This document shows positions 3,001 to 18,481 of a stretch of DNA of 49,849 bases, one piece after another (position 1 is the first letter of the stretch; each line of letters begins with the position of its first letter). Below the pieces are notes generated by a model. The model saw nothing but the letters and a program-made list of their open reading frames with translations. It was not told where the DNA came from and searched no databases. Source of the DNA: Deltaproteobacteria bacterium (lineage in GTDB: Bacteria > UBA10199 > JACPAL01); contig JACPAL010000017.1 of NCBI GenBank assembly GCA_016180855.1, positions 1 to 49,849 of the forward strand, given 5' to 3'. The translations under genes and the position numbers were made by a program.

Positions 3001-3423
3001 TTGGAGCTCCTGCTCGATATTAGCCGCCTGCTGGCTCTCTTTAAGGATTTTGACCTCACGGGGGGTAACTCCGAAAAGTGGTTCTCGTTTCAATATCCTA
3101 AAATTCTTGACAAATGTGCAAACACAGCCTGCCCTGATCCACTACCGGATTATTTTGTCATCAGTCTTCAGAATGAACTCAGGGACTTTATTTTCGAGGT
3201 CATGACTGACTCCACCTGTCATCTCAATACAAGGTTCCTCGATAACCAAAAAAGTCCGATACACGCCCGTGAAAAAATGGAGATACGAAAGGATGGCCGA
3301 CGAGAAACGAAAGGGTTTCAGATCGACAGGCTCACAAAAGGAAAATATCTCATTGAGATCGACGGCAGCTCTCCTTGTCCCTATCAGATAAGAATGGGGA
3401 ATAAGAGACGTCAAAAAGGTTAA
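43..3423 (+). CDS. Secreted subtilisin-like (S8) serine protease with C-terminal beta domains
   Basis: A large exported S8-family endopeptidase. Numbering from the GTG at 43 (1126 residues), the triad is Asp272 in VAFIDEG, His341 in WHGFNVESVAA and Ser562 in SGSATSHATP; the oxyanion Asn is in VVAAAGNE. The first 25 residues form a signal peptide (hydrophobic LIILLPLFPLILLAG) without a lipobox Cys. About 200 residues precede the catalytic domain and may be an inhibitory propeptide. After the protease domain, a stretch around residues 645-745 (GGDEDFYTFTF) resembles a pre-peptidase C-terminal (PPC) domain, followed by further beta-rich sequence. The ATG at 52 may be the true start: it begins a cleaner signal peptide, but the GAGAGAG in front of it is too close to be a normal ribosome site. 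The stop interlocks with the convergent gene. Substrate is unknown. Confidence 0.88.
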   Translation: MREMLKRFAFGLIILLPLFPLILLAGSPVIKQPVPIKNIAGIKPTCGKKVCITVESTENLKKDFPKLSLEGKPIAIMVGPNKKPQRFIPDQIIFKPRDLAHLKTFLKRTNAKILHDGTLALPPQRAGLNNPKIRPKKSGYYLLKIPAFTRPNSKEFAKLMESQLKSANGTYRLNQEGLALTHFILKETARGEKVSPNVIIDSAAQPDVMSFTEEELVDDLFLDAFDFPGVGTPYGVNLQKAWQYIDLLQPSAATANPNTEERDTMVKVAFIDEGFRAVPDLISTDLTLDGWDSECSTWDNGPWYYSHEPVCTEWNVDYSVINEPIISAVNSSTCLNDICWHGFNVESVAASRINNSVGIAGTGGQVIYPILMQRGNLITRRPTTYEDAWLVLSATMPEWGTQIINMSFGMIDDGSETFDYNIDPLREAVGAAVDAGVIVVAAAGNESVSLDLHASTVCGVDGIICVGAGDTARWVVRGVFRSVELPAGGGVGVECVAPDPEGPATLTDCDRAGSNWGGNVDIWAPVPLKTLNAPKCDTDYPCSTPEEIEARPINVSSGSATSHATPYITGVIAMMKALKPSLTADEARMILRDTATPSDDPLVTPGYVNPYKAIQHVMELQGLTLPDDGNDTPEESIATSIGLAPESSALGSIIPGGDEDFYTFTFPDTYSSLRIELLAGNHEINGPFYAHLYTDGYLLGEPFFSVTPYPGGSYDASLVPPRQRYDVKIKGLDDTFGNYRLRFIRSNGAVSPDRYDDQSPTGEARNDRREDAARLGIDSGGEITREDLISPFGARVMDLNFDRAAGGTSPYPADPEDLDIDYFILELPSEVPTGQFGILGTDCLSDDALTSMEAEIEGLRGRDMDLNYSPGYLQVYAEPYHYLDHDWPESIHIELFNGDTWAPLELESIPPIDFGLPGYDTREEGTDITLTGPPVLTCPRQKVPSGRIGIKVTSTGTAEPRNFYNLTLKYRGWGIYPVEHRNPLPPLELLLDISRLLALFKDFDLTGGNSEKWFSFQYPKILDKCANTACPDPLPDYFVISLQNELRDFIFEVMTDSTCHLNTRFLDNQKSPIHAREKMEIRKDGRRETKGFQIDRLTKGKYLIEIDGSSPCPYQIRMGNKRRQKG

Positions 3424-3839
3424 TAATAAGGGATATAATTACAGGCCTCGGCTTCAGTCTCTGTAGAATTCAGGATCTGAATTCCCAAAGTTGTACGATC
3501 ATCGAGTTGATAAGTAATTGTTGATTGGCATCTTTGCATGTTGTCGACAGGGGAAGTCCAATACGTAATGGTGGTACACTGACCACTCTCGACGATTCTT
3601 TTCAATTCTTCCAGATCTTCAGGCGGATTCTCAAATACCTGATCACCCCATGTCTGAGATAAATTCGGTCGATGGCTAGCAGCATTGATACGAGCCTCAA
3701 TCTCCTCACAATTGTTATAATATTGATTGTTTAAACACTCCCGATCCCCTTTGGCGCACGACTCCTCAGCCGCTCTGCCACCACAAGCCCAGGCCAATGA
3801 CGCCCCTACTGCGGCCAAGACTGTTAAGAATCGACTCAT
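3420..3839 (-). CDS. Small exported Cys-containing protein, unknown function
   Basis: 139 residues with a signal peptide (MSRFLTVLAAVGASLAWA followed by CGGRAAEE). The Cys after AWA could be a lipidation site, but Trp at -2 is not a canonical lipobox, so a soluble periplasmic or secreted product is equally likely. The mature part has several Cys residues, including CAKGDREC and CEE, consistent with disulfides. A G-rich ribosome site (GGGGGG) lies upstream of the ATG. The stop codon interlocks with that of the convergent protease gene (TTAA at 3420-3423). I do not recognise a family. Confidence 0.6.
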   Translation of the reverse strand: MSRFLTVLAAVGASLAWACGGRAAEESCAKGDRECLNNQYYNNCEEIEARINAASHRPNLSQTWGDQVFENPPEDLEELKRIVESGQCTTITYWTSPVDNMQRCQSTITYQLDDRTTLGIQILNSTETEAEACNYIPYY

Positions 3840-3964
3840 TGAGAACCCCCCTTTTTAATAATTCTTACCAAGAGACACATCATGTGTTATCGATTTCGAA
3901 TCAAAAAAGTTGCTTCCCCAAAAAGTCTTCTTAAAATTCATCGTGTTAACCTGTTACCTGCTAG

Positions 3965-3993
3965 TTGACACCTTTTCTTCACTTTGCTACCAA
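3965..3993 (+). promoter_or_regulatory. Candidate sigma-70 promoter for the cupredoxin gene
   Basis: A perfect -35 TTGACA (3965-3970) is followed 17 bases later by a weak -10 TACCAA (3988-3993, three of six matches). It sits about 50 bp upstream of the ATG at 4040, in the only sizeable gap (3840-4039) between two divergent genes. The rest of that gap shows nothing else recognisable. Confidence 0.35.
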
Positions 3994-4039
3994 GGCGCAG
4001 GCATTGAACAAATATTCAAACAGAACAAGGAGGAATAAT

Positions 4040-4750
4040 ATGAAGGCTTTAAGGTTACTCACGTTGGTTGCGGTTCTCTTGGTGTCAGGTCTCTTGCTTC
4101 TTCCGGAATTACACTCTCAGGGAGCCGCGGGAACGATCAAGGGGACAGTCAAGCTGACAGGGACCCCCCCTGCGGTCAAGCCGCTCAAGAAACAGGCCGA
4201 CCCGTACTGTGCCAAAAACCCCTCCAATGATGAGACGGTTGTTGTCAATGGCAATGGGACCCTCAAGAATGTGGCCGTGAGGATCAAGGGACCTGTTGTA
4301 GGCGCTGTCGCCTCCCCTACAACTGTTAATGTGACTCTGGATCAGAATCAGTGCATGTATGTCCCTCGTGTTGCTGCCTTGGGGTTGGGGCAGAAGCTTA
4401 GTATCAAGAATAGCGATCCGGTTCTCCACAACGTTCATTGTTATAATGGACCGCAGACCTGCTTCAACCAGGCCCAGATGAAGGGGGCGAAGGATATTGA
4501 GAAGGAGCTGGCCCCTGGTCTCTACAAGATGAAGTGTGATGTCCATCCCTGGATGACCGGTTACGTCGTTGTGGGTGAAAATCCATTTGTTTCCGTTACG
4601 GGGGGTACCGGTGAATTTTCGCTCGCCAATGTTCCCGCTGGAACCTACACCGTAGAGGCCTGGCACGAGCTGTACGGAACTCAAACAGCTCAAGTGACGG
4701 TCGCTGCCGGTGGAGCCGCAACGGCTGATTTTACGTTTGCAGTGAAGTAG
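4040..4750 (+). CDS. Exported cupredoxin (type I copper) protein with carboxypeptidase-regulatory-like C-terminus
   Basis: 236 residues starting at the ATG at 4040, chosen because AAGGAGGA lies 6 bases upstream; an upstream in-frame start at 3965 lacks a ribosome site. The N-terminus is a Sec signal (LLTLVAVLLVSGLLLL). A plastocyanin-like domain follows, with likely copper ligands His130 (LHNVH) and Cys166, His169 and Met172 in CDVHPWM, the normal order for a blue-copper site. The last 55 residues (GEFSLANVPAGTYTVEAWHE) look like a carboxypeptidase regulatory-like beta-sandwich. Such proteins are periplasmic or surface electron carriers or copper binders; the redox partner is not apparent from neighbours. 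The family assignment is good, the role is open. Confidence 0.85.
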   Translation: MKALRLLTLVAVLLVSGLLLLPELHSQGAAGTIKGTVKLTGTPPAVKPLKKQADPYCAKNPSNDETVVVNGNGTLKNVAVRIKGPVVGAVASPTTVNVTLDQNQCMYVPRVAALGLGQKLSIKNSDPVLHNVHCYNGPQTCFNQAQMKGAKDIEKELAPGLYKMKCDVHPWMTGYVVVGENPFVSVTGGTGEFSLANVPAGTYTVEAWHELYGTQTAQVTVAAGGAATADFTFAVK

Positions 4751-4763
4751 GGAAGAGACGAAG

Positions 4764-5168
4764 TTATTTACTGTCGGTAAAAACACCGAGACAGAATCCA
4801 ATGGTGCTGCCGAGGAGAACTCCGCCAAGAGTTCCTCCGAGAACAGCCCCGAGACCTCTCCATAGTCCAAGGCCGTTTCTTGCCTTGATAAGGCCAAGCG
4901 TAAAGCCGACATCCCCTGCCAGGAAACCTCCAATGAGAGAGAAGGTGACGGGCCTTTTTATTCTGTCTTGGTAACCTTGTCCCGGATTGAGGCACTCCAG
5001 GCCATAGCTCCCGATGAGTCTTTGCAACGCCTCAGGATCATTGGGATCATGCGGCAGATCTTCCATTTCGGGGATGCCATTTTTATTGCCATATTTCGAC
5101 TGGTCAATGTTTTGGCAGAGTACGGGAATACAATGGCAGACATCAGATTGAATCGGGGTCAAGGCCAC
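4764..5168 (-). CDS. Small membrane protein, unknown function
   Basis: 134 residues from a GTG start that has AGGAGA 8 bases upstream. The N-terminal half is hydrophilic with three Cys residues (CHC, C). The C-terminal half (from about residue 72) has Gly-rich hydrophobic segments, SLIGGFLAGDVGFTLGLI and GLGAVLGGTLGGVLLGSTIGF, consistent with two transmembrane helices forming a hairpin. It is the last gene of a leftward set with the DUF1802 and flippase-like genes, separated by 24 bp from the DUF1802 stop. No family recognised. It ends 13 bp from the convergent cupredoxin gene. Confidence 0.55.
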   Translation of the reverse strand: MALTPIQSDVCHCIPVLCQNIDQSKYGNKNGIPEMEDLPHDPNDPEALQRLIGSYGLECLNPGQGYQDRIKRPVTFSLIGGFLAGDVGFTLGLIKARNGLGLWRGLGAVLGGTLGGVLLGSTIGFCLGVFTDSK

Positions 5169-5192
5169 AGGTTTGTTCTCCTATCACCCCTT

Positions 5193-5759
5193 TTATCGTT
5201 TGATGAGGGAGAGAGATTGCTGAAAAAATTCACTGTCCGACAAAACGGGTCTAAGCCCGAGAGGAACAGTTAAAGGGGGAGAGATCGTTACCCACGATTT
5301 GCAGCCCCGATAAGAGGTCTTCATCGGCAGTTCGATCATTTGAGGAAGTTCATAGACCCGGAGGATAAGGAGGGTCAGTCGGCCGTCCCCTCGATAATCA
5401 AAGCGACTTTCGAGAAAGGAGTTTGTCCAAATATGTTCTTTAAGAAGGTGATGCAAGGAACGTTTATCTTGACACACAACGGTAGCCGTCACTTCCGCAA
5501 AATATTGAAGGAGAATTTTTCCTTGTGACTCTTCGGAACCGATGAGCTCAAGATCAAGATAAAACTCCGGCTTAATCTCTTCCCGGTTTTGGTGGAGGGT
5601 CGTCGGAAAAAGAAAGAAACTCCGGTTTTCCACGACAAATCCTTCTGTCTCCTCGGAGATCCCCCCTTTTCGTGCAACAAAGATCTGCCGGCCCTCACCG
5701 AGCGCCTTGCAGACAATTGCCCACTCTTTAAGAAGCTTGTTGCAGGTTTTTTCCTTCAT
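5193..5759 (-). CDS. DUF1802 family protein
   Basis: 188 residues. The N-terminal segment LKEWAIVCKALGEGRQIF followed by VARKGGISEE is characteristic of the DUF1802 family, whose biochemical function is not known. The protein is soluble and has no signal peptide. Its start overlaps the 3' end of the flippase-like gene by about 30 bp on the same strand, which suggests translational coupling within one transcript. Nothing in the sequence reveals a catalytic motif. Confidence 0.75.
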   Translation of the reverse strand: MKEKTCNKLLKEWAIVCKALGEGRQIFVARKGGISEETEGFVVENRSFFLFPTTLHQNREEIKPEFYLDLELIGSEESQGKILLQYFAEVTATVVCQDKRSLHHLLKEHIWTNSFLESRFDYRGDGRLTLLILRVYELPQMIELPMKTSYRGCKSWVTISPPLTVPLGLRPVLSDSEFFQQSLSLIKR

Positions 5760-6753
5760 CTCTTTTCCTCACAACGGCTTCCCTCTTGAAGGTCAGGGCG
5801 ATCGCTGCCCCGACAAAATACCAGAGCCCCGAATTCAGTTTTCTCAAAAGTTCCAGTGAAACTCCTGTGGCAGGATCGAACCCGAGCCAGTGAAACAGGA
5901 CGCCATAAGTTCCCTCCAAAATGCCGAGGTTACCAGGAAACAGAAAAAAAAGAACGGTCATGAGAAGCGACATGGAGGAGAAGATAATCGCCTCAAGAAA
6001 ACCTAAGGGAATGTTCAGAAACTTAAGCAGAAGGAAAATTTCAAGGGCGACCGTCAGGCGGGCGACAACGATAATCCCAACCGCCTTCAAAAAGTCGGAA
6101 TGTCCCTTTTCGTAATAACGTCGTATCGAGGTGTCGATCTCCTTCGTTTTTTCAACCCAGGTTGGTTTGATCCATCTTTTAAAACCGATTCTGCCCAGAA
6201 GATTCAGCAATGATTCAAAGGCGGTTTTTTTCTGGTGTGAGATAATAAAAAAGAGTCCCGCAAAAAGGAGGCCGACAAGGAGCCAAAGGGTTAATTGGGG
6301 CAGAAGAGAAAGGGGGAGTCGGAAGCTGGCCAGCATGAGTCCCAAAAGAACGATAATCCCCCCACCAAAGGTCATGACGGTCCGGTCGATGATGACGGAT
6401 CCAGCCTGATCGGTCCTTGAGAGCCTTTTCCCCATGAGAAGGATTCGGGCCGTGTCTCCGCCCAAAAAGTGGACAGGGGTCGATCGGGTGATCAGTTCGC
6501 CGGCTACCTTGATCTGAAATAATTTGCCCAGGGAATAGCTGTTTGGTGGCAGAAACATTCTCCAGGCGATCGTGTAGAGAATATAGCGTGGGAACCCTAT
6601 CAGAAAGACCCATCCTAAATTCCAGCCAACCAACCTGATATTCTGGAGAATTTTTGAAGGCCCCAAGACATAAATGATAGAAGTGGCGAGTCCGATCGCG
6701 AAGAGAAGAAAAAAAAAGCGTAGGAATTTCACGGTTTGCACTTGGGGTATCAA
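5728..6753 (-). CDS. Flippase-like integral membrane protein (LPG-synthase TM region / UPF0104 family)
   Basis: About 341 residues with many transmembrane helices (RFFFLLFAIGLATSIIYVLG, GGIIVLLGLMLASF, LTLWLLVGLLFAGLFFIIS, AIIFSSMSLLMTVLFFLFPG). The conserved core HFLGGDTARILLMG and the FPGNLGILEGTYG motif place it in the LPG_synthase_TM / UPF0104 group, which includes lipid flippases and transport modules of lipid-modifying enzymes. I chose the TTG at 6753 because AAGAGAG lies 5 bases upstream; an ATG at 6846 would overlap the divergent gene, and GTG codons at 6741 and 6732 are alternatives. It faces the CDP-alcohol phosphotransferase fusion across a short divergent region, so a role in moving that product across the membrane is a reasonable inference. 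Confidence 0.75.
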   Translation of the reverse strand: MIPQVQTVKFLRFFFLLFAIGLATSIIYVLGPSKILQNIRLVGWNLGWVFLIGFPRYILYTIAWRMFLPPNSYSLGKLFQIKVAGELITRSTPVHFLGGDTARILLMGKRLSRTDQAGSVIIDRTVMTFGGGIIVLLGLMLASFRLPLSLLPQLTLWLLVGLLFAGLFFIISHQKKTAFESLLNLLGRIGFKRWIKPTWVEKTKEIDTSIRRYYEKGHSDFLKAVGIIVVARLTVALEIFLLLKFLNIPLGFLEAIIFSSMSLLMTVLFFLFPGNLGILEGTYGVLFHWLGFDPATGVSLELLRKLNSGLWYFVGAAIALTFKREAVVRKRDEGKNLQQAS

Positions 6754-6826
6754 GAGAACTCTCTTATTGTAAAGGGAAATAGCGATTGACCGGGGATCGT
6801 TGCAGAGGTAGGTTCCGCGACTCCAT

Positions 6827-8254
6827 ATGGTCCAGGCTGTTATCATTGCCGCCGGAAAAGGGAATCGTCTCCGAAAAGAGAATGGGCGTTTACCTAAGCC
6901 GCTTTATTCCGTTGCGGGCCTCCCGATTATTGAAAGGGTGATTCTCTCTGCCAAGAAGGCCGGGATTTCTGAATTTGTGATTGTTATTGGCTGGGCAGGA
7001 GAAAGAATTCAACGGTGGCTGGAAGGTCGGCAGAAAAAACTGGGGGTTCGTCTCCAGTTTGTCGTCAATCCTGAATGGGAGAGGGCAAACGGTTTCTCAC
7101 TGCTGAAGGCAAAGGATCATTTGAGAGATGACTTTGTTCTCCTCATGTCAGACCATATCTTTGATTGGAAGATTCTGGAGAATCTTCTTAAACGACCGCC
7201 AGCGCCCGATGAGATGACGTTGGGTGTTGATCGTCGTCTGGAAGAGATTTTCGACGAGACTGATGCGACGAAGGTGAGGACGGAGGGAGACCGGATTCGC
7301 GTGATTGGCAAGGAGATCGGTCCGTATGATGCGATTGATACGGGTCTTTTCTATTGTTCGCCTCTTTTTCTGAAGGCCGTGGAGAAGAGTTGTAGAGAAG
7401 GGAATGGGAGTATTTCGGAGGCGGTCCAGGCGATGGCGGCTGAAGGGAAGGGAAAGATTTTTGATATTGGCAACCGGTATTGGCAGGATGTCGACACGCC
7501 GGAGGCCCTCAAAGAGGCCGAGAGGATTCTTTTTCAGGCGGCGCGGAAGCCGGCAACGGATGGATTTGTGTCGTCGCTTCTCAACCGAAAAATTTCCGGA
7601 GTGATTTCCCGCATGCTCATTCGGCTCCCCGTTACCCCGAATCAGATCACCTTTTCATCATTTTTGATTGGTCTGCTCTCCTCCTTTCTCATTTCGCGCG
7701 CTGATTATCCCAGTGTCGCACTCGGGGGGCTCCTCTTCCAGTTCGCCTCGATCTACGACGGCTGTGATGGTGAAGTGGCAAAGATCAAAATGGCCCAGTC
7801 AAAACTCGGGGAATGGATGGATACCGTTTCTGACAATCTCACGTATCTTGCCTTTTTTGGTGGTGTTTTGATTGCCAGCCTTCGGCAGGGGATTTTCCCT
7901 CACACAGTTTCGGTGGGGATCTCGGCACTGACCGGGATTGTTCTATCGATGTTTGTGATGGCCTTTTATTTGATACGGTATACGACTTCCGGCAGTTTTG
8001 TGACGGTGCAACAAGACTTGACGAGTGATATCAAAAACCGGCAGCAACCGTCCCTCGGCCGTCTTTTTATGTCTCTCAAATTTCTCGTCAAAAGGGATTT
8101 CTTCGCTTTTCTTTTTATGATCCTCTGTCTCTTCAACAAACCACACTGGATCCTTGTCTTCTGGGCGATTGGGGCCAACGCCTTGTGGCTGACGCTGCTC
8201 TTTTTGAAGAAAGAGTTTACGCGGGCCAGAACAACGCTACAACCTCAAGATTAG
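6827..8254 (+). CDS. Bifunctional nucleotidyltransferase / CDP-alcohol phosphotransferase (IPCT-DIPPS-like)
   Basis: 475 residues with two domains. The N-terminal 230 residues are a sugar-phosphate or inositol-phosphate nucleotidyltransferase (AAGKGNRLR, LPKPL, MSDHIFD). The C-terminal part is a membrane CDP-alcohol phosphotransferase with the metal-binding signature D311xxD314G315xxA318K319x8G328xxxD332xxxD336; the usual Arg after Ala is Lys. This order matches the inositol-1-phosphate cytidylyltransferase/DIPP synthase fusions of thermophiles and related bacterial enzymes. It probably activates a phospho-alcohol with CTP and transfers it to a lipid or second alcohol at the membrane. The exact alcohol cannot be read from sequence. 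The downstream radical SAM gene begins 1 bp after the stop, so they form one operon. Confidence 0.82.
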   Translation: MVQAVIIAAGKGNRLRKENGRLPKPLYSVAGLPIIERVILSAKKAGISEFVIVIGWAGERIQRWLEGRQKKLGVRLQFVVNPEWERANGFSLLKAKDHLRDDFVLLMSDHIFDWKILENLLKRPPAPDEMTLGVDRRLEEIFDETDATKVRTEGDRIRVIGKEIGPYDAIDTGLFYCSPLFLKAVEKSCREGNGSISEAVQAMAAEGKGKIFDIGNRYWQDVDTPEALKEAERILFQAARKPATDGFVSSLLNRKISGVISRMLIRLPVTPNQITFSSFLIGLLSSFLISRADYPSVALGGLLFQFASIYDGCDGEVAKIKMAQSKLGEWMDTVSDNLTYLAFFGGVLIASLRQGIFPHTVSVGISALTGIVLSMFVMAFYLIRYTTSGSFVTVQQDLTSDIKNRQQPSLGRLFMSLKFLVKRDFFAFLFMILCLFNKPHWILVFWAIGANALWLTLLFLKKEFTRARTTLQPQD

Positions 8255-8255
8255 C

Positions 8256-9224
8256 ATGCTATCGAAACAGCTTTCGACCGCGAGAAAAATAGACGGTTTT
8301 TATAAATACCTTCATCTCAAGATGAAGGGCGGCGGCCCCCGCCTCATCAACCTCGAGGTGACGAAGCTCTGCAACGCGCAATGCGATTTTTGCCCCTGCT
8401 GGGAGATCAAGGACTATCCACAGCTCAAGGATTATGGTCCGGTTATGGAGAAGTTCAAGCCGATCGTCCTCTCCCTGAACGGCGGAGAGCCTCTTTTACG
8501 TAAGGATTTGATCGATATTATCGATCAGGTTCGGCCTCATTGTACCTATTTGACTTTGATTACCCATGGACAACTGCTGACGGAGAAGAAGTTCAAGGAG
8601 TTCTGGGATCATGGTGTCGATCAGGTCTCTATTTCAAGAAATTATATCGATGCGACCCACGATGAAGAACGCCACCTGCCCGGTTTGACAAAACATTTTG
8701 AAAATCTCATCCCCCATTTAACACGCCAGGGATTCGATAATATCGTTTTTAATACGGTGATTATGGATCGGAATATCGATCATATTGTCCCTCTTGCGAG
8801 GCAGGCCTATGAATGGGGGGCGAAGATCTCTTTTAGTTCCTATAGCTCGATGAAGAACGACCGGCCGGAGTATCAGGTTCGTGAGGCGGGGCTTCAAAGG
8901 CTCAAGGAGGTTGTTGAGGAAATTCTTGTTTTAAGAGGGAAACAGGGGAACATCCTGACCTCCGAGTATTATCTGAAAAAGATTCCGGAATACTTTGAGA
9001 ATGGTTATGTGAACGACTGCCGGGCCGGTCTTAATTTTATCCAGATGACACCGGATGGTTATATCAAGAGGTGTTCCGAGATGCCGGTCATGATGCATTG
9101 GTCTGACTATGAGCCGAAAAAGGTAGAGCAGCCGAACCCCTGCAATGTCTGCTGGCTCTCCTGTCGTGGGGAGACAGAGACCCCGTTGACGGCGGCTCGG
9201 ATTTGGGAGTTTATAAAGCATTAA
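8256..9224 (+). CDS. Radical SAM protein with SPASM-like C-terminal Cys cluster
   Basis: 322 residues. The [4Fe-4S]/SAM motif is CNAQCDFC (CxxxCxxC) near residues 39-46, followed by LNGGEPLLR, the GGE motif that binds the SAM amino group. The C-terminus has further Cys residues (NDCRAG, KRCSEM, NPCNVCWLSC), consistent with a SPASM or twitch-type auxiliary cluster. Cotranscribed with the nucleotidyltransferase/phosphotransferase fusion, so it may modify that product or its lipid acceptor. Alternative: a peptide-modifying enzyme, but no precursor peptide gene is visible nearby. Confidence 0.8.
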   Translation: MLSKQLSTARKIDGFYKYLHLKMKGGGPRLINLEVTKLCNAQCDFCPCWEIKDYPQLKDYGPVMEKFKPIVLSLNGGEPLLRKDLIDIIDQVRPHCTYLTLITHGQLLTEKKFKEFWDHGVDQVSISRNYIDATHDEERHLPGLTKHFENLIPHLTRQGFDNIVFNTVIMDRNIDHIVPLARQAYEWGAKISFSSYSSMKNDRPEYQVREAGLQRLKEVVEEILVLRGKQGNILTSEYYLKKIPEYFENGYVNDCRAGLNFIQMTPDGYIKRCSEMPVMMHWSDYEPKKVEQPNPCNVCWLSCRGETETPLTAARIWEFIKH

Positions 9225-9284
9225 TGGAGATATGGTTGATCAGCTTTTGGTTAGTACATTTTTGTTGATAAACCATAAGTATTT

Positions 9285-9376
9285 CTAACTTTTAGCGGGT
9301 ACAGTCGTATCCGCTAAAAGTTGAAATACTCTAACTTTTAGCGGGTACAGTCGTATCCGCTAAAAGTTGAAATACT
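9285..9376. repeat. Two perfect tandem copies of a 46-bp hairpin unit
   Basis: Units 9285-9330 and 9331-9376 are identical over 46 bp. Each contains AACTTTTAGCGGGTAC and GTATCCGCTAAAAGTT separated by AGTC, a 16-bp stem with one G-T pair and a 4-nt loop. The second copy ends 4 bp before tRNA-Leu. No T-tract follows either stem, so these are not typical intrinsic terminators; they resemble a REP/BIME-like doublet. The bases between the radical SAM gene and the repeat (9225-9284) show no feature. Confidence 0.9.
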
Positions 9377-9380
9377 ATAG

Positions 9381-9464
9381 GCCGCCTTGGCGGAACTGGT
9401 AGACGCGCCAGACTCAAAATCTGGTGGGGGCAACTCCGTCCCGGTTCGACTCCGGGAGGCGGCA
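9381..9464 (+). tRNA. tRNA-Leu (anticodon CAA)
   Basis: An 84-nt class II tRNA. The acceptor stem is GCCGCCT (9381-9387) with AGGCGGC (9457-9463) and discriminator A9464. The anticodon arm is CCAGA-CTCAAAA-TCTGG, giving anticodon CAA, which reads the Leu codon TTG. A long variable arm (around TGGGGGCAACTCC) and a T-arm with GGTTCGACTCC are present. CCA is not encoded. Confidence 0.96.
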
Positions 9465-9513
9465 CAAAAACTTTGACTTCGGGACAATTTTCAAGTTCTA
9501 CTCCGTCCCTGTC

Positions 9514-9924
9514 ATGGGGAAATCGTTCTTTTTTCTCTTGTTTGTCGTGCTGATCGCCTCGTGCGGGGGGGCTGAAGAGGAGTTTGCTCTCTCGTCTTCC
9601 CTCGATGAACCGGTGGATGAAGAGGAGTTTTCCCCTTCCGACACCCTCAAATCGGCCGTTACCAACACCGGGGCCACTGTTGCGGCAGAGGCCGGCTATA
9701 TTACGGATGGAGCGACCATTACGATTCCGGAAGGTTTTGCTGCCTCACAGTGCGTCTTCACAGCAGCGCTCGCTAACGTCAGCGGCTCGGCTATTTCCTC
9801 AAGGGCTACCGTGAATCCGACGACCGGCCAGGTGACCTGCCGGTCGGTGGTTCAGGAGAGGGAGGAAGTTCAACCAACGGAGAAGAGTTGTGTCGCCTCT
9901 TATACTGTGATCTGCGCCAAATGA
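9514..9924 (+). CDS. Small lipoprotein, unknown function
   Basis: 136 residues from the ATG at 9514. An open frame extends back into the tRNA, so this start was chosen as the first ATG outside it. It gives a clean lipoprotein signal, MGKSFFFLLFVVLIASC, with lipobox IASC. The mature part is acidic at first (EEEF, DEPVDEEEF), then Ala/Thr-rich with Cys residues in QCVF, VTCR, KSCVASYTVIC. Its stop overlaps the pgi start (ATGA), so the two are translationally coupled. No family recognised. Confidence 0.6.
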   Translation: MGKSFFFLLFVVLIASCGGAEEEFALSSSLDEPVDEEEFSPSDTLKSAVTNTGATVAAEAGYITDGATITIPEGFAASQCVFTAALANVSGSAISSRATVNPTTGQVTCRSVVQEREEVQPTEKSCVASYTVICAK

Positions 9925-11303
9925 CCTCTTTTTCTGATATCACCCTAGATTTTAATAACATGATGGCCGACCGGGTCGGACCGGGCGGAATCCAGGTCTC
10001 GGAGATCGACGAGTTGATCCCGGGTTTACGCCAGATCTATCAAGGGCATACGGATTTAAGAAGATTAGGACAGTTGCCGTTCCGCGACCTCCCTTATCAG
10101 GAAGAACAGGTCGAGCTTATTCTCAAGGTGGCTCGAAAAATTCGCGAACAGTTTGAGAGTGTTCTGCTCCTGGGCACCGGAGGTTCTTCTCTGGGGGCTG
10201 CCTTTCTGCTTCAGGCACTTAGACCGGAGGGCGATCGATCGCCAAGAATCGAGATTTGTGAAGATCTCCACCCTCATACCTGGAAGCTCATGACGGAAAG
10301 ATTGTCGGAGAAGAAGACATTCTTGGTCGTTGTGAGCAAATCGGGAAAGACGATTGAAACGCTGGCTGCCTTTCTTTTTTTCAGAAAGTGGATGATTGAG
10401 AAGGTCGGAGAAGAGACCTACAAAAAGAGCGTGCTGTTTATTACCGATCCTCAAAAAGGCCCCCTTCGGAGGATCGCTGAGTCTGAAAAAATTGAGACAC
10501 TGTCTGTTCCGCCTGGCGTGGGGGGACGTTACTCGATCCTTTCCACGGTCGGTCTGATCCCGACCGCCTGTGTTGGTATTGAGATCCGCGAGATTATGGC
10601 CGGGGCGCGTCGAATGGACCAACGTTGCCAGAGGGAGGATGTCTGGATGAATCCTGCGGAGATGTCGGCGGCCCTTCATTATCTATTGGATCTGAAACGT
10701 CGTAAGAAGATGAGGGTGATCATGCCGTACGACGACCGGCTTCGGGCCTACACCGATTGGTTTGCCCAGCTTTGGGCTGAGAGTCTGGGGAAGAGGTTTT
10801 CACTGAAGGGTGAGGAGGTTCGGGCTGGCTCCACACCGGTCAAGGCGCAAGGGTCGATTGATCAACATTCCCAGCTCCAGCTCTATCTGGAAGGGAGCCA
10901 GGACAAGACCGTAACGCTCATTGCCGTCGAACAGCCGGCGGTTGATTACCGGATTCCACAGGCATACGAAAATATCCCGGAATTCAGCCTTTTGGTGAAC
11001 AAGGGGACCCAGCAGCTCCTGACGATTCAACGGCGATCGACCGAGGCCGCTTTGAGTCAGGTCGGTTGTCCCAATATGACGATTGAACTTAAGTCGGTGA
11101 ATCCGTACACGATCGGTCAACTTCTCTATCTGGCGGAGGTTGAGACCATTTTTGCCGGGACGCTCTATAACATCAATCCGTTTGATCAGCCAGGCGTTGA
11201 ATTGATCAAGAATTACATCCGGGGTTTTCTGGGTGAACCGGAGTACCGTAAATACAGGCAGGTTGTGGAGGGGAACAAGAAGGACAGTCGCTACACTATT
11301 TAG
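9921..11303 (+). CDS. pgi: Glucose-6-phosphate isomerase
   Basis: 460 residues from the ATG at 9921, which overlaps the previous stop; an upstream GTG at 9888 is possible but unlikely. Family motifs: LLGTGGSSLGAAFLLQAL (phosphate-binding loop), VVSKSGKTIETLAAF, GGRYSILSTVGL and the C-terminal Lys region, with QLQLYLEGSQDKTVTLI and DQPGVELIKNY. It interconverts glucose-6-phosphate and fructose-6-phosphate in the cytoplasm. The length fits the shorter bacterial class. The stop interlocks with the convergent lipoprotein gene (TTAG at 11300-11303). Confidence 0.95.
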   Translation: MTSFSDITLDFNNMMADRVGPGGIQVSEIDELIPGLRQIYQGHTDLRRLGQLPFRDLPYQEEQVELILKVARKIREQFESVLLLGTGGSSLGAAFLLQALRPEGDRSPRIEICEDLHPHTWKLMTERLSEKKTFLVVVSKSGKTIETLAAFLFFRKWMIEKVGEETYKKSVLFITDPQKGPLRRIAESEKIETLSVPPGVGGRYSILSTVGLIPTACVGIEIREIMAGARRMDQRCQREDVWMNPAEMSAALHYLLDLKRRKKMRVIMPYDDRLRAYTDWFAQLWAESLGKRFSLKGEEVRAGSTPVKAQGSIDQHSQLQLYLEGSQDKTVTLIAVEQPAVDYRIPQAYENIPEFSLLVNKGTQQLLTIQRRSTEAALSQVGCPNMTIELKSVNPYTIGQLLYLAEVETIFAGTLYNINPFDQPGVELIKNYIRGFLGEPEYRKYRQVVEGNKKDSRYTI

Positions 11304-12064
11304 AGATGAGAGGGGTCTCCTCCGTTTCCCGTTCGAGAACCAATGAGCCCTCCCGTCGTTGGAGCTGGTAGTGGTGTAGAATGCTCCTCGGCATAGGACT
11401 CTGTTCCAGGGATAGATGAGTCTCCGCTTCCCGTTTGAGAACTCGTAAAGCCTCCTCCCGTCGGTACATCCGGTGATGTGTCAAAAGTAATCTCGGAATA
11501 GGATGATGGGTCTAGAAGATTACGATTTGATTCAAAGGCGCTTCTTAAGCGAAGGCGGTCTCTCAGCTCATCCCCCACAGTAAAGCGGACCTCGAGAGAG
11601 GTTGTTTCATCGAGTGAGACCTGAAGACTCAACCCCTCCGGATCGCTTCTGAGATTCCCGTCCGGGTCAACCTCGAAAGAGGCGCTCGTGGAGTGAAAAG
11701 GTTCATCGCTTGTCAAATCGTCATAAAAGGAGACCGTGAGGTCCTGCTGATCGACATCAAAGGTCGTCTCAAAAAAGCCTCCCTCCAGTTCCAGAAGGGG
11801 CCGTCGTTCGGAAGTCGGATTATCCCGGAGATAAGTGATGAGTCTCTCCAGGGGGGAGAGGCTCTCTTCCGTCTCCTCTTCGGCCTGATCTCCCGTTTCC
11901 GAATCAGAACTCTCGGAACCGGCGGTGTTTGTCGGATTGCCGGCACGTGTCGCCTCCTGGGTCGTTGGGATGAGGAGAGAGATCTCACCAGATTCTTCGA
12001 GGCATCCTGCGATCAAGGCAGAGGAGAATAACAGGGTAACCAATAAGGGAAACGGTGTATTCAT
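11300..12064 (-). CDS. Lipoprotein, unknown function, coupled to a TIGR02147 regulator
   Basis: 254 residues. Lipobox LIAGC at residues 17-21 after a typical signal. An acidic Ser/Glu-rich linker (SESSDSETGDQAEEETEES) leads to a beta-rich central domain, and the C-terminus holds two imperfect Gly/Thr/Ser copies (TGGGFTSSQTGSG and TGGLIGSRTGNGG) that are also visible as an imperfect DNA repeat. Its ATG overlaps the upstream regulator stop (TAATG), so they form a two-gene operon. TIGR02147 genes often sit next to lipoprotein genes; the function here is unknown. Confidence 0.7.
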   Translation of the reverse strand: MNTPFPLLVTLLFSSALIAGCLEESGEISLLIPTTQEATRAGNPTNTAGSESSDSETGDQAEEETEESLSPLERLITYLRDNPTSERRPLLELEGGFFETTFDVDQQDLTVSFYDDLTSDEPFHSTSASFEVDPDGNLRSDPEGLSLQVSLDETTSLEVRFTVGDELRDRLRLRSAFESNRNLLDPSSYSEITFDTSPDVPTGGGFTSSQTGSGDSSIPGTESYAEEHSTPLPAPTTGGLIGSRTGNGGDPSHL

Positions 12065-12930
12065 TATTTTCCTCCTGAGACTACCGTCAACGGAAAGAGC
12101 TGAAAGTTAAATTGATAGACGGTTGTTGCTAAAGGATCCTCCCCCTCAAGATTCTGCATGAGTCGGTTCTGAAATTCCTGTATCTCCTGCTTCATTTGGC
12201 GGAATTTTTCCGGTGAGAGGGCCGCTGTGATGCATGAAACCTCGCGGTCGGTACCATGGTTTTTTGAGAGAGATTCCTTGGCACGATCGAGCATCTGTCG
12301 ATGAAAATGGGTCATACAAACCTCCTCGACCTCTGGAGAGGTTTCCACATTTTTACTCGTCACGCTCAATCGTCCATCGGGGTCTCTCTCGACGAGCTTT
12401 AATTCAAAGAGGAGTTGGATCCCCCGTTTGATCTCAGCCGGGGTTAATTGCTTCCCCAACTTACGGATGATCCAGGCGTGGTCCTCTTTAAAATGAGACG
12501 TCCCGATGAGCTCACGAATGACCGGCAAGTACCAGTGGGAGAAATATTCGTACTGACAACTCTGGATCCGGAGCCCGTTCTCCTTTTTAAGGATCGGGAG
12601 CAGTTGTTCATAGTAATGCTGTTTCGTCTCCATATCCTTTGACTGATTGAACCGAACAAGGTTTTCAAAGTAGAATCGTTCTTTGGTTGTGAGTCCCAAT
12701 GCCCGACAGATACCGTCTATCGATTTATCGGCGATGTTTTTCTTTCTCCGGATCAGATCGAGCAGATAACTGGGCGAGGTGAACCCGGCCTTTCGTGAGA
12801 AAACTCGGTGGGAAAATCGGGGATTCTCCTTTTTTCGTTTAAGATAAAAATCGGCCAGAAACTGTCGATAATCGGTGTATCCTATCAGGGAAGGGGTTTC
12901 AGGCCCTTGTGTTGGTTCTAAGGAATCCAT
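12064..12930 (-). CDS. TIGR02147 family putative regulator
   Basis: 288 residues. The N-terminal segment YTDYRQFLADFYLKRKKEN, then FSRKAGFTSPSYLLDLIRRKKN, looks like a helix-turn-helix, and LGLTTKERFYFENLVRFNQSK is typical of the TIGR02147 family, found in Fibrobacteres and deltaproteobacteria-like groups. The middle and end (DPLATTVYQFNFQLFPLT) complete the family length. The likely role is DNA-binding control of its own operon; inverted repeats at 12990-13031 in the divergent region are candidate operators. It overlaps the lipoprotein start by one base. Confidence 0.8.
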   Translation of the reverse strand: MDSLEPTQGPETPSLIGYTDYRQFLADFYLKRKKENPRFSHRVFSRKAGFTSPSYLLDLIRRKKNIADKSIDGICRALGLTTKERFYFENLVRFNQSKDMETKQHYYEQLLPILKKENGLRIQSCQYEYFSHWYLPVIRELIGTSHFKEDHAWIIRKLGKQLTPAEIKRGIQLLFELKLVERDPDGRLSVTSKNVETSPEVEEVCMTHFHRQMLDRAKESLSKNHGTDREVSCITAALSPEKFRQMKQEIQEFQNRLMQNLEGEDPLATTVYQFNFQLFPLTVVSGGK

Positions 12931-12989
12931 AACGCGTGTTTATTATCGTATTCCGTACCCATAGGTTTCGTTAAAAAACAATCGCCGGG

Positions 12990-13031
12990 AATTTGACTTT
13001 CGGGATCAAGTCAAATTGATTGTAATCAATT
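12990..13031. promoter_or_regulatory. Two adjoining inverted repeats in a divergent intergenic region
   Basis: AATTTGACTT (12990-12999) and AAGTCAAATT (13008-13017) form a 10-bp perfect inverted repeat with an 8-base spacer. It runs into AATTGATT (13014-13021) and AATCAATT (13024-13031), an 8-bp inverted repeat with a 2-base spacer. They lie in the roughly 300-bp AT-rich gap 12931-13230 between the TIGR02147 gene and the gene at 13231. Palindromes like these are typical operator sites. A third, smaller stem (GATCCGA/TCGGATC, 13180-13198) lies closer to the rightward gene. Operator function is inference. Confidence 0.5.
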
Positions 13032-13230
13032 GATTTTAAATAACTTTTATAAAAAGCCCTTCAAAAATATTCTACTCAAAATAGTGTTTAAGTGTACGCC
13101 AGGTAGGTACAGATTTCTCAAAAACGGGTCATTTTTAAGCGACATTAATAGTTCTTCATCGAGACCTGAAATGAAAAATGATCCGAGTGGTTCGGATCTT
13201 AAAGATCAAATTCAAGGAAGAGGAGGAATT

Positions 13231-13989
13231 ATGAGAGGCATCCATCCAGCGGCATCCGCTGTCGTAGAGGCGGCTATTGCCATGTTAAGAGCGGGTAGAG
13301 GAACAAGGGTCATCAGTGCAACTCAAGAGTTTGTTGTGCCGGTTGGAAGGATCGTCGGTGGAGGAGAACGGTTGGTCTATCCTGCCGGAGAGAAAATAGG
13401 TCAGGCGATTGTTGATTGCAGAGGGAGGCCGGTTGGCAGATTAGGAGTCGTCTTTTTTAATAATGAGAAGCAGGCCTGGCAGGCGGCAAGAGGGGATGGA
13501 ACTGCTGTTATTATAATGAACGGGATTGACAAACTGACGGCGAACCGTCTTCGTGGCACGTATAGAGAGCTTATTGGTAGTTCTGCTCTTAGTCCTGAAA
13601 CCCCCAATCTAGTGGGGCTCCTTAATTTTTTACGGGCAGCCAATGTCAGGGATCTCTATGGGTCTACCAGGAAGTATGTCCAATCTCACATGGTGCCGGT
13701 TGACGGTTTAAATGTTTTTACCGCCTTTGGTGAGACGTTTGGTCATATGAGGGGTTCGCATGATGTTTCTTTGGCTATCTACTTCGCGCAACCATTTGCA
13801 TTTGCCGGTCCGGTGGCAACGTCTCAGATATTTAAACGGGGTGGAGTTCTGCTCTTTCGGTCCTCAGCAGATGCAGTCCAAGCAATACCACCGGATGTTT
13901 TTGCGCGGACCTACAGGTTGGCAGATGGAGCCCGTGAGATTAGTGATATGAGTGAGATTGTTCCGGTTCCACCCATTTCACCAAACTGA
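13231..13989 (+). CDS. Hypothetical protein
   Basis: 252 residues from the ATG at 13231, chosen because AGGAGGA lies directly upstream. The frame stays open back to 13030, but that part looks non-coding (AT-rich, Lys/Asn/Phe-rich translation). The protein has no signal peptide or clear transmembrane helix; it begins MRGIHPAASAVVEAAIAML and contains Gly/Val-rich stretches (VGRIVGGGERLVYPAGEKIG). I do not recognise a family. It is divergent from the TIGR02147/lipoprotein operon and may share its control region. It ends 10 bp from the convergent acyltransferase gene. Confidence 0.55.
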   Translation: MRGIHPAASAVVEAAIAMLRAGRGTRVISATQEFVVPVGRIVGGGERLVYPAGEKIGQAIVDCRGRPVGRLGVVFFNNEKQAWQAARGDGTAVIIMNGIDKLTANRLRGTYRELIGSSALSPETPNLVGLLNFLRAANVRDLYGSTRKYVQSHMVPVDGLNVFTAFGETFGHMRGSHDVSLAIYFAQPFAFAGPVATSQIFKRGGVLLFRSSADAVQAIPPDVFARTYRLADGAREISDMSEIVPVPPISPN

Positions 13990-13999
13990 GAAAAATCTT

Positions 14000-15063
14000 T
14001 TAACCAAACCAGGGGGAGCGGCGTTGTTTCAATCCGTCCATCACCATCTCCTGGATCGTCCCACGAACCTCTTCGGAGAGACGGTTGACGAGGAGCTGGT
14101 CTTCTGCCGCTTCAGACGGGTATTGCTTGTGGAGCTCAATAGGCTTTCCGAAACTGATCGTCCATTTGGAGGGGAAAGGGATGAGCCCCAGCGGACCGAG
14201 GAGCGGGAGGGTAGGGGTTACCGGTAAATAGGGGATCCCCAACGGTTTGGCCAGTACGGTCGACTTGTAAAGGATCGGATGGATCTCTTCGGCGCCGATA
14301 ACAGAAACGGGGATAATTGGGGAACCGGTCGTAAGGGCCAGCTTGACGAAACCGCCGCGCCCAAACCTCTGGAGCCGATAGCGGTTTTTGTAATGTTTCC
14401 CAATCCCCTTTACCCCCTCCGGGAAGACGACGACGAGGTGCCCCTTCTTGAGTAAGCGCTCGGCATTCTCCGGACAGGCGCGAACCCCACCGATGCGGTA
14501 CATAAAGGTACCGAGAAATGGAAAGTGGTAGACAAAATCTTCTACGAGAAAACGGACATCACGTCGTGAGGGATGATCATTTTCAACGGCGAGCCGGATC
14601 ATCGCCCCGTCGTAGGGGAGTGTTCCGGAGTGATTGGCCACAATAAGTGCCCGCCCATCCGCGGGGACGTTCTGTATCCCCTGCACGCGGACGCGCCAAT
14701 AATCATAATAGAGGAGGTCGAAGAGCGGTTTGACCCGTCGCCCGAAGGAGGGGTCCATGCCGAACTCATCGACTTCACTCTCCTCCACCTTTGATTCTCC
14801 CCACCAGAGAGATTTGAGCGAACTAAGGGCCCCCTCCAGCTGGTGGCCGGAGAGAAGGGTTTCCATGAGGGAGATCGAGGCGGGCTTCTTCTCCGGACGA
14901 GAAGAAGGTTCCTTGCCGGTCTTATTGAGAAGGCTTTTCATCTCCCTTTCTACCTTTTCGAGACGCCGTGAAAGCTTCATTGCGAGCTCCTTCCAATTTT
15001 CGGTTTTAGGGCTGTCACCCGCTCCCTGGAGAAGCTTAAGGTAAGAAATTTTATGAGGTTTGG

Positions 15064-15067
<4 letters not shown>
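14000..15067 (-). CDS. PlsC-like lysophospholipid acyltransferase family protein
   Basis: 355 residues. The first 120 are charged and probably partly coiled-coil (WKELAMKLSRRLEKVEREMKSL). The acyltransferase domain has NHSGTLPYDG (residues 145-154), in which the catalytic His146 and Asp153 are six residues apart (Hx6D) instead of the usual four, and the block III motif FPEGVKGIG. This variant is seen in some glycerophospholipid or diacylglycerol-type acyltransferases. It overlaps the upstream epimerase stop (ATGA) and ends the long leftward run that begins at thiS. It probably acylates a lipid at the membrane; the acceptor is unknown. Confidence 0.8.
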
Positions 15068-17522
<2,455 letters not shown>

Positions 17523-17524
17523 TT

Positions 17525-18481
17525 TCATAAAATATTCTCCCAATCCTTCCAGACCGGCTCGTAACCGTGTGCCATAATGGCGGCGGCAACCTCAGCCGGT
17601 GTTCGCATGTCTTCAATCTCAAACTGTCCTTCTGACTCTTCGGGTTTTAAATAACCTCCCGGTTCCGTTCTGGAGCCGGCACTCATCTGCGTTACCCCGA
17701 CCCCGATCAACCGATCACGCAATTGAGGCGATTCTCGCGTTGAAAGGAGAATACCAACATCCGGCAGGGCGATCCGGAGAGCACAGATCATCTTCAGAAA
17801 CTGTTCATCAGAGACAGGAGAGGAAATCTCATAGTTTCCGGCGCAGGGGCGGAGGCGAGGGAGGCTCACCGTAAATTCTGTCTGCCAGAATTTTTTCTTC
17901 ATGCAACGGACATGCTGTATCAACGCTTCCAAATCGTCCTTCCATTCGGAAAGGCCGACCAGTATTCCCATACCGATCCGACGCATACCGGCCCGGGCTG
18001 CTGCTTCCGGGGCCTCGAGACGGCGACTATAATTTTTCTTGGGGCCGGCTAAATGAACCTCTTCATATCGCTTTTGATTGTAGGTCTCCTGGTAGATCAC
18101 GACCCCATCGACACCGGCAGAGATGAGCTCTCGATACTCCTCCTCCCGAAAAGGGGCCACCTCGATCGAGAGGGATGCCAGACGGGGTTTAAGTTTTGTT
18201 GCAATCTCCTTGAGATAGCCCGGTGAAACCAGGCGTGGATGCTCGCCGGAGACGAGCAGGAGGTGTTTAAAGCCTTGGCTGGTCAGGTAGTTTGCCTCTG
18301 ATAACACCTCCTCGACGGAGAGGGTTTTACGGGTAATTTTATTCTCCAGGCTAAAACCACAATACTTGCAGATGTCGATACATTCGTTGGAGAGGTAGAG
18401 GGGGGCATAGAGTTGGATGGTCCGGCCGAAACGCAAGAGAGTAAGCCGGCGAGCCTCGTCTGTCAGATCTCGAACGATCAT
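17525..18481 (-). CDS. thiH: 2-iminoacetate synthase ThiH, N-terminally short
   Basis: 318 residues. ThiH cleaves tyrosine to dehydroglycine for the thiazole of thiamine. The radical SAM cluster is Cys34-x3-Cys38-x2-Cys41 (CIDICKYC), preceded by [17 protein letters not shown] and followed by [21 protein letters not shown] and STRESP. From memory, E. coli ThiH is about 377 residues and has roughly 55 more before the equivalent of LTLLRFG, so this protein lacks the N-terminal region. The start overlaps the thiG stop (ATGA), and a palindromic repeat lies just upstream in the 3' end of thiG, which suggests rearrangement at this junction. Confidence 0.92.

Follow-up and report, generated by a model that had tools for sequence, protein, structure and literature searches.

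A candidate inositol-lipid locus with a conserved radical SAM partner in a class of uncultured bacteria

Genes and domains at the locus

We analysed a 49,849-nucleotide stretch of DNA from a Deltaproteobacteria bacterium (contig JACPAL010000017.1, hereafter the window; C17 of genome G000, which is 2.2 Mb in size and 96% complete), in which three neighbouring genes lie at positions 5728-9224. Their open reading frames (ORFs) were confirmed as a flippase-like gene on the minus strand and, on the plus strand, a nucleotidyltransferase fused to a cytidine diphosphate (CDP)-alcohol phosphotransferase (here called the fusion) and a radical S-adenosylmethionine (SAM) protein, rSAM1 (Table 1). The original prediction, made from the sequence alone, had placed the fusion and the radical SAM gene in one operon, facing an LPG_synthase_TM-type flippase, and the domains were confirmed by Pfam. 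The fusion stop codon, TAG, ends at 8254 and the radical SAM ATG stands at 8256, leaving a single base between the two genes. The locus most probably represents a variant, with fused enzymes, of the inositol-lipid cluster that works through CDP-inositol.

The fusion (475 amino acids; 6827-8254, plus strand) scored above the Pfam cut-offs of NTP_transf_3 (45.5 bits), NTP_transferase (43.4 bits) and CDP-OH_P_transf (38.0 bits). Its closest solved structure is Archaeoglobus IPCT-DIPPS (PDB 4mnd; E 2.5e-54), and this match spans both domains, which upholds the IPCT-DIPPS-like nature first proposed for it. Taken alone, the first domain scored 151 bits with the IPCT-DIPPS equivalog model NF041135, and the second scored 104 bits with it, compared to 51.6 bits with the archaetidylinositol-phosphate synthase model NF040950. 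In an alignment of 14 of the 18 fusions (A2; those of G002, G025, G034 and G046 were left out for extra length or divergence), R14, K24, D109 and a W-D-D stretch are invariant. The active site of the Thermotoga cytidylyltransferase contains R16, K26 and D112 (PMC12275187), and R14/K24/D109 of the fusion supply the same Arg/Lys/Asp set, the equivalence to the Thermotoga numbering being by motif only. The second domain falls within the CDP-alcohol phosphotransferase superfamily by its PF01066 score (38 bits, cut-off 22), and the D-x2-D-G-x2-A ... G-x3-D-x3-D frame is present (D311, D314, G315, A318, G328, D332 and D336), its acidic residues being invariant in the 14 aligned fusions.

The radical SAM protein (322 amino acids) scored 44.5 bits with PF04055 (cut-off 29.5). 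Its CxxxCxxC motif (C39-x3-C43-x2-C46) is invariant in 22 aligned sequences (alignment A3, the window protein and 21 of the best 80 loci). Five further cysteines in the C-terminal part (C255, C273, C296, C299 and C303) are likewise invariant, as seen in alignment A1, which comprises 11 of 15 radical SAM proteins, the four of other subfamilies being left out; their spacing resembles that of a shortened SPASM/twitch region. Among the best 25 of 42 NCBIfam families, no radical SAM model was over its cut-off, and the best named match was PTO1314 at 58.4 bits compared to a cut-off of 306. An AlphaFold2 model built from the window protein and 21 relatives reached a pLDDT of 89.7 and a pTM of 0.88. 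Structural searches with this model, which included Foldseek, gave BlsE (7vob) as the top match (Z 24.1, root-mean-square deviation 2.9, 278 residues aligned), followed, with the same three values, by SkfB (22.9, 4.8, 281), SuiB (21.8, 3.3, 269), a viperin-like protein (20.9, 3.2, 259), MoaA (19.8, 3.1, 256), DesII (19.6, 3.7, 265), tetraether synthase (18.5, 3.3, 242) and BtrN (4m7t; 16.1, 2.9, 205). BlsE, viperin, DesII and BtrN, which are radical SAM enzymes of sugars, cyclitols or cytosine compounds, resemble the rSAM1 model in fold and also have extra iron-sulphur cysteines, whereas identity in the structural alignments is 12-20% and scores are far under family cut-offs. The resemblance to BlsE is not specific, as SkfB, viperin and MoaA match at Z values of about 20-23. 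The substrates of BlsE and viperin are cytosine compounds, which would suit CDP-inositol; a shared fold in itself shows no function. An identity as calditol synthase or tetraether synthase was rejected, since models of generic radical SAM proteins scored at least as well as PTO1314 and Tes; for calditol synthase, this rejection rests on model scores, with no calditol synthase sequence compared.

The third gene belongs to the LPG_synthase_TM family (PF03706, 77.3 bits, cut-off 33.4), and its product has strongly hydrophobic segments. An HpnL or hopanoid role was rejected, as the score with the HpnL model TIGR03476 (99.9 bits) is under the cut-off of 195.65. The annotated flippase ORF (5728-6846, start ATG 6846) overlaps the fusion start at 6827. 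The true start is most likely TTG 6753 or GTG 6741, which is favoured by a 60%-identical relative and an upstream AAGAGAG stretch, and which would leave about 73-85 bp between the divergent genes. A promoter scan found no site inside 6754..6826, and all promoter and terminator claims were dropped, since the 7 sites in the region are close to the yield of shuffled sequences (3.9 +/- 2.0). At its 3' end, the flippase gene overlaps with a DUF1802 gene of the same orientation (PF08819, 182 bits; window 5193-5759, minus strand).

Table 1. Features of the locus, in window positions
Feature	Position	Strand	Evidence
LPG_synthase_TM / HpnL-like membrane protein, putative lipid flippase	5728..6753	-	PF03706, hydrophobic segments
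Divergent intergenic stretch between flippase and fusion	6754..6826	.	Sequence; AGAGGTAGG, ribosome-binding-site-like, ahead of the fusion start codon ATG
Nucleotidyltransferase domain of the fusion, IPCT-like	6827..7534	+	NF041135; R14/K24/D109; matches to 2xme and 4mnd
CDP-alcohol phosphotransferase domain of the fusion, DIPPS-like	7535..8254	+	PF01066, NF041135; motif DGCDGEVAK...G-x3-D-x3-D
Radical SAM protein rSAM1	8256..9224	+	PF04055, alignments, AlphaFold2 model, fold matches

Conservation of the locus and gene fusions

Loci were read by six-frame profile search in a class sample of 46 genomes (G numbers; loci carry L numbers). A phosphotransferase or fusion (E <= 1e-30) was found in 43 of them (not in G003, G023 and G042), a flippase family match in 42, inositol-1-phosphate synthase in 41, and HAD (E <= 1e-30) and rSAM1 (E <= 1e-40) in 32 each; 14 genomes carry full-length or nearly full-length fusions (E <= 1e-118). 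Gaps to the phosphotransferase were measured in 51 loci from 44 genomes. Of the 43 genomes with a phosphotransferase, 39 also have a radical SAM gene at a distance of 5.3 kb or less from it, which is a per-genome count of at least one phosphotransferase near such a gene. These linked genes comprise 30 of the rSAM1 type and nine of a second type, rSAM2, an unrelated subfamily with about 20-29% identity to rSAM1 over part of its length; the nine include the partial gene at a contig end in G005, which scored only 51 bits. In one locus (L044, G009), two rSAM2-type genes (10982-11989 and 14425-15426) flank the flippase gene.

Where a genome has two phosphotransferase loci, we took as primary the one with the larger or radical-SAM-linked gene set. 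Among the 44 primary loci, 43 hold the phosphotransferase (the other, in G003, was fetched for rSAM1), 38 the nucleotidyltransferase, 32 the flippase, 25 HAD and 10 the synthase, whose identity was checked by Pfam on L145; the loci of G023 and G042 were left out for lack of a strong phosphotransferase match. A radical SAM gene is missing from all seven secondary loci of these genomes, and this contrast (39/44 vs 0/7, Fisher test) arises partly by choice and ignores shared ancestry. Gene order and strand vary between families in the class, which suggests that the link has been re-made or selected, and not only inherited as one block. A chance neighbourhood was rejected, as the genes stand together in most of the class despite changed orders and orientations.

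Two forms of the locus can be told apart. In the window type, the radical SAM gene lies directly downstream of the fused enzyme, the flippase gene is divergent and no HAD gene adjoins. Here, rSAM1 directly follows the fused enzyme in 10 genomes (profile gaps of 0-83 bases), and the flippase gene is divergent in 9 of the 14 genomes with a fused enzyme. The full window arrangement with rSAM1 occurs in 7 of the 46 genomes (G000, G006, G012, G017, G027, G032 and G037), that is, in six relatives of the window; together with the 39 of 43 genomes above, this answers in the affirmative whether the neighbourhood is conserved. HAD is missing from most genomes that have only the fused type, and none was found beside the window locus or, at E <= 1e-30, in its own genome. 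The split type begins with a phosphotransferase that has an extended N-terminal part; the genes for HAD, nucleotidyltransferase and flippase follow, in many cases along with the synthase gene, and rSAM1 is transcribed divergently. In 10 aligned split-type phosphotransferases (L143, L146, L149, L150, L153, L155, L158, L174, L175 and L178), the N-terminal part is without the AAGxGxR, MSDH and WxDVD stretches and looks like a decayed nucleotidyltransferase domain; hence, split-type loci may have arisen from an ancestor in which the two enzymes were fused.

The strongest evidence that the flippase, HAD and radical SAM proteins share the pathway of the fusion comes from further gene fusions. The nucleotidyltransferase and flippase form single ORFs in L143, L149 and L158 (seen by profiles, and by Pfam on L143), L054 encodes a nucleotidyltransferase-phosphotransferase-flippase fusion of 821 amino acids, and L055 a nucleotidyltransferase-phosphotransferase-HAD fusion of 700 amino acids. 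In L226, a phosphotransferase-radical SAM-SPASM fusion of 703 amino acids adjoins an rSAM1 gene. None of these six ORFs contains ambiguous bases. The idea that the genes form one pathway locus is thereby strengthened, as both the flippase and a radical SAM domain are tied to the same enzymes.

The survey was widened to 385 genomes, the 46 of the class and 339 others. At E <= 1e-60, rSAM1 was found in 50 genomes, 20 of them outside the class, and 16 of these 20 have a phosphotransferase or nucleotidyltransferase match (E <= 1e-40). We fetched 20 outside loci, from the 19 genomes other than G059, G271 giving two. Outside the class, the flippase gene stands beside the phosphotransferase in L235, L236, L251 and L252, and an archaeal-type inositol-1-phosphate synthase beside the fused enzyme in five genomes (L053, L239, L240, L253 and L254; Pfam on L053 and L254).

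Other neighbours were recorded at these loci. An MMPL-family transporter adjoins the fused enzyme in L041 (6131-8659), L052 (2855-4178) and L054 (5310-7721); two of these three genomes belong to the class and one does not. The gene beside the flippase in L045, L046, L047 and L049 encodes a glycerol-3-phosphate acyltransferase or a homologue of it (Pfam on L047, homologues by BLAST in the others). In L046 (2789-3729, G027), the flippase gene is split into two ORFs matching the start and the end of the profile, which would reflect a frameshift, decay or an assembly error. The own genome also carries a second CDP-alcohol cluster (L160, G000:C15:90000-109999), a single run of genes at 4860-17775 with two nucleotidyltransferases, three CDP-alcohol phosphotransferase matches, an AAA_33-HAD protein, a GFO/IDH/MocA oxidoreductase and a RuBisCO-large-chain-like protein (PF00016, 155 bits).

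Proposed pathway and alternative explanations

Since inositol-1-phosphate synthase is found in 41 of the 46 genomes, including the own genome (PF01658 at G000:C14, a different contig from the window), inositol is the most likely head group, and CDP-inositol the most likely route to it. The unusual head group of the original prediction is not borne out as stated, given that the genome encodes this synthase and that 10 relatives have it within the locus itself. In the pathway that we propose, myo-inositol-1-phosphate synthase, encoded elsewhere in the genome, would provide L-myo-inositol-1-phosphate, which the first domain of the fusion would convert with CTP to CDP-inositol. The second domain, embedded in the membrane, would then use CDP-inositol to place inositol phosphate on a lipid alcohol such as diacyl- or dialkylglycerol, and the LPG_synthase_TM protein would carry the resulting lipid across to the opposite leaflet. 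One tailoring step on the same molecule, at the CDP-inositol or the lipid stage, would fall to the radical SAM enzyme, which most likely acts on the cyclitol (oxidation, epimerisation or deoxygenation). The domains, the retained active-site residues, the synthase gene, the linkage across the class and the gene fusions are observed; an inositol phosphate is the likely substrate of the fusion and a lipid its probable acceptor, and flipping of that lipid by the LPG protein is plausible. We give roughly even odds (about 0.5) that the locus makes an inositol lipid through CDP-inositol and that a radical SAM step has been added to this route. More tentatively, a radical SAM step on the inositol head, at the CDP-inositol or lipid stage, may belong to an inositol-lipid pathway that is widespread in bacteria and yields a phospholipid with a modified cyclitol head, which is then flipped; varied subfamilies would have been recruited to this step, and in one lineage it would have been fused to the phosphotransferase. 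The radical SAM enzyme would act on the head group, and the product would be a flipped lipid and not soluble di-myo-inositol phosphate.

Several observations weigh against this pathway. The fusion scored 277.9 bits with NF041135 (E 1.5e-82), short of the equivalog cut-off of 580, and the product of the nearest characterised enzyme is soluble. The related nucleotidyltransferase CpgD takes phosphoglycerate (PMC12275187). The CDP-alcohol phosphotransferase motif is given as DX2DGX2AR (PMC9246714), and the Arg after the Ala is a Lys in the window (Lys in 11 of the 14 aligned fusions); this is a conservative change, and superfamily membership rests on the curated PF01066 score. Within the class, G003 (96% complete) has rSAM1 and the synthase, with no nucleotidyltransferase, phosphotransferase or flippase match. 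The phosphotransferase loci of G025, G034, G041 and G044 are without a radical SAM gene; G025, which has a three-part fusion, shows none in the stretches read, and the loci of G034 and G041 are on contigs shorter than 7 kb. The contigs that carry L050 and L056 are only 5.9 and 6.7 kb long, so that the lack of a radical SAM gene on them says little. As the own genome is without a HAD match, window-type and HAD-type loci may not be quite the same in function. Outside the class, 4 of the 20 rSAM1 genomes gave no strong phosphotransferase match (G292, G322, G334 and G391), and the phosphotransferase lies within about 10 kb of rSAM1 in only four (adjacent in G059 and G268, about 9 kb away in G233 and G369). 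In 8 of the 20 outside loci (L215, L216, L219, L221, L222, L223, L225 and L232), rSAM1 adjoins a profile match to the PF01663 phosphodiesterase family (about 480 amino acids), which was confirmed by Pfam on L216, L219, L222 and L223. Among the matches listed, the named rSAM1 homologues L060-L065 have no nucleotidyltransferase, phosphotransferase or flippase nearby, and none of these profiles matched in L060-L139, the best 80 loci of named genomes, which are no census and give no proof of absence. L064 is identical to L157 of G044. In the same set, L068 (Phycisphaerales) has four clustered ORFs with radical SAM profile matches at 3064-9135.

Owing to the pairing with PF01663, rSAM1 may act on phosphodiesters more widely, and not only in the inositol-lipid pathway. 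This pairing, as well as the presence of rSAM1 without the rest of the locus in G003, lends something to an explanation that we consider unlikely, in which the locus makes an inositol lipid and the radical SAM enzyme targets the lipid chains (C-C or desaturation chemistry), an unrelated phosphodiester or a protein partner. The fold match to tetraether synthase points the same way, and the best folds are general to the superfamily. However, the best of them, BlsE, works on a cytosine-linked sugar, and in the class the radical SAM position is filled by either of two subfamilies unrelated to each other, with a third fused to the phosphotransferase in L226. A shared substrate pathway is the easiest explanation for several subfamilies at one place.

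The IPCT-DIPPS fusions of Archaeoglobus and Thermococcales make a soluble solute in known cases, and both the closest structure and the best family model of the window fusion are IPCT-DIPPS. The fusion could therefore make soluble di-myo-inositol phosphate from CDP-inositol and inositol-1-phosphate, followed by dephosphorylation, with the flippase and radical SAM proteins as mere neighbours or as exporter and modifier of the solute. A HAD phosphatase able to remove the extra phosphate is present in 25 of the 44 primary loci. We regard this as rather unlikely, because four loci have a flippase-type domain joined to these enzymes in one ORF, and because neither the own genome nor most of those with only the fused type have HAD. 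To our knowledge, the solute is known from thermophiles only, and a crude IVYWREL composition estimate gave about 49 C (99 ORFs), which is not that of a hyperthermophile.

Under the proposed pathway, the activated head group might also be another sugar or polyol phosphate, as in the case of CpgD. The fusion score below the NF041135 equivalog cut-off would allow for this, as would the five class genomes without an inositol-1-phosphate synthase match and the stand-alone nucleotidyltransferases of HAD-type loci, which match sugar nucleotidyltransferase models about as well or better. A head group other than inositol is nonetheless improbable, considering the synthase in 41 of 46 genomes and inside 10 primary loci, and the archaeal-type synthase that adjoins the fused enzyme outside the class.

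Comparison with known systems

Bacterial inositol lipids are described as rare in the abstract of PMC9246714. Little has been characterised of the route to them through CDP-inositol, which an entire class of uncultured bacteria seems to possess. Through the gene fusions and the radical SAM gene that accompanies nearly every copy, a vague annotation becomes a testable pathway, in which LPG_synthase_TM proteins may serve to transport inositol lipids and a radical SAM enzyme may catalyse a new reaction, either on a membrane lipid or on its activated head group.

The Archaeoglobus and Thermococcales IPCT-DIPPS (4mnd, NF041135) has the domain order and active-site residues of the window fusion. In contrast, the latter scores under half the equivalog cut-off, has Lys for the motif Arg and stands beside flippase and radical SAM genes. 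CDP-inositol itself takes part in the synthesis of the di-inositol phosphate solute, as stated in PMC12275187.

In Bacteroides vulgatus, a putative alternative inositol-lipid cluster is described with MIPS, an NTP transferase, a CDP-alcohol phosphotransferase, HAD and a neighbour annotated as LPG synthase (PMC9246714). The split-type loci have the same gene content, a comparison made by gene content only and not by sequence. The route proposed there leads from CDP-inositol and diacylglycerol to phosphatidylinositol, the functions of the B. vulgatus enzymes being unconfirmed according to the same text, and the same CDP-inositol route is given in PMC10191378. A phosphotransferase-HAD fusion is reported in P. 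veroralis (PMC9246714), and L055 carries the corresponding fusion with a nucleotidyltransferase domain added. The window differs from the Bacteroidetes cluster in that the two enzymes are fused, HAD is lacking and the synthase is on another contig. MIPS, nucleotidyltransferase and phosphotransferase are all present, and no HAD lies within the cluster; the window locus is therefore filed as a variant, and not as a member, of the CDP-inositol cluster.

The original prediction of a new polar-lipid locus holds only in part, since a similar cluster had already been predicted in Bacteroidetes (PMC9246714), and it is the radical SAM partner that is new, as far as the available text of that source goes. 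The term 'radical SAM' is absent from its main text, and a literature search, with most subscription papers outside its reach, found no paper joining 'CDP-inositol' with 'radical SAM' and no such locus.

In Rhodothermus marinus, a CDP-inositol pathway to inositol phospholipids was reportedly described by Jorge, Borges and Santos in 2015, and that description is said to include no radical SAM or flippase gene. The R. marinus pathway and the one proposed for the window would have in common that inositol is activated as CDP-inositol and then handed on to a lipid alcohol. What is new in the window and its relatives, and sets them apart from the inositol-lipid gene groups described, is the conserved radical SAM partner.

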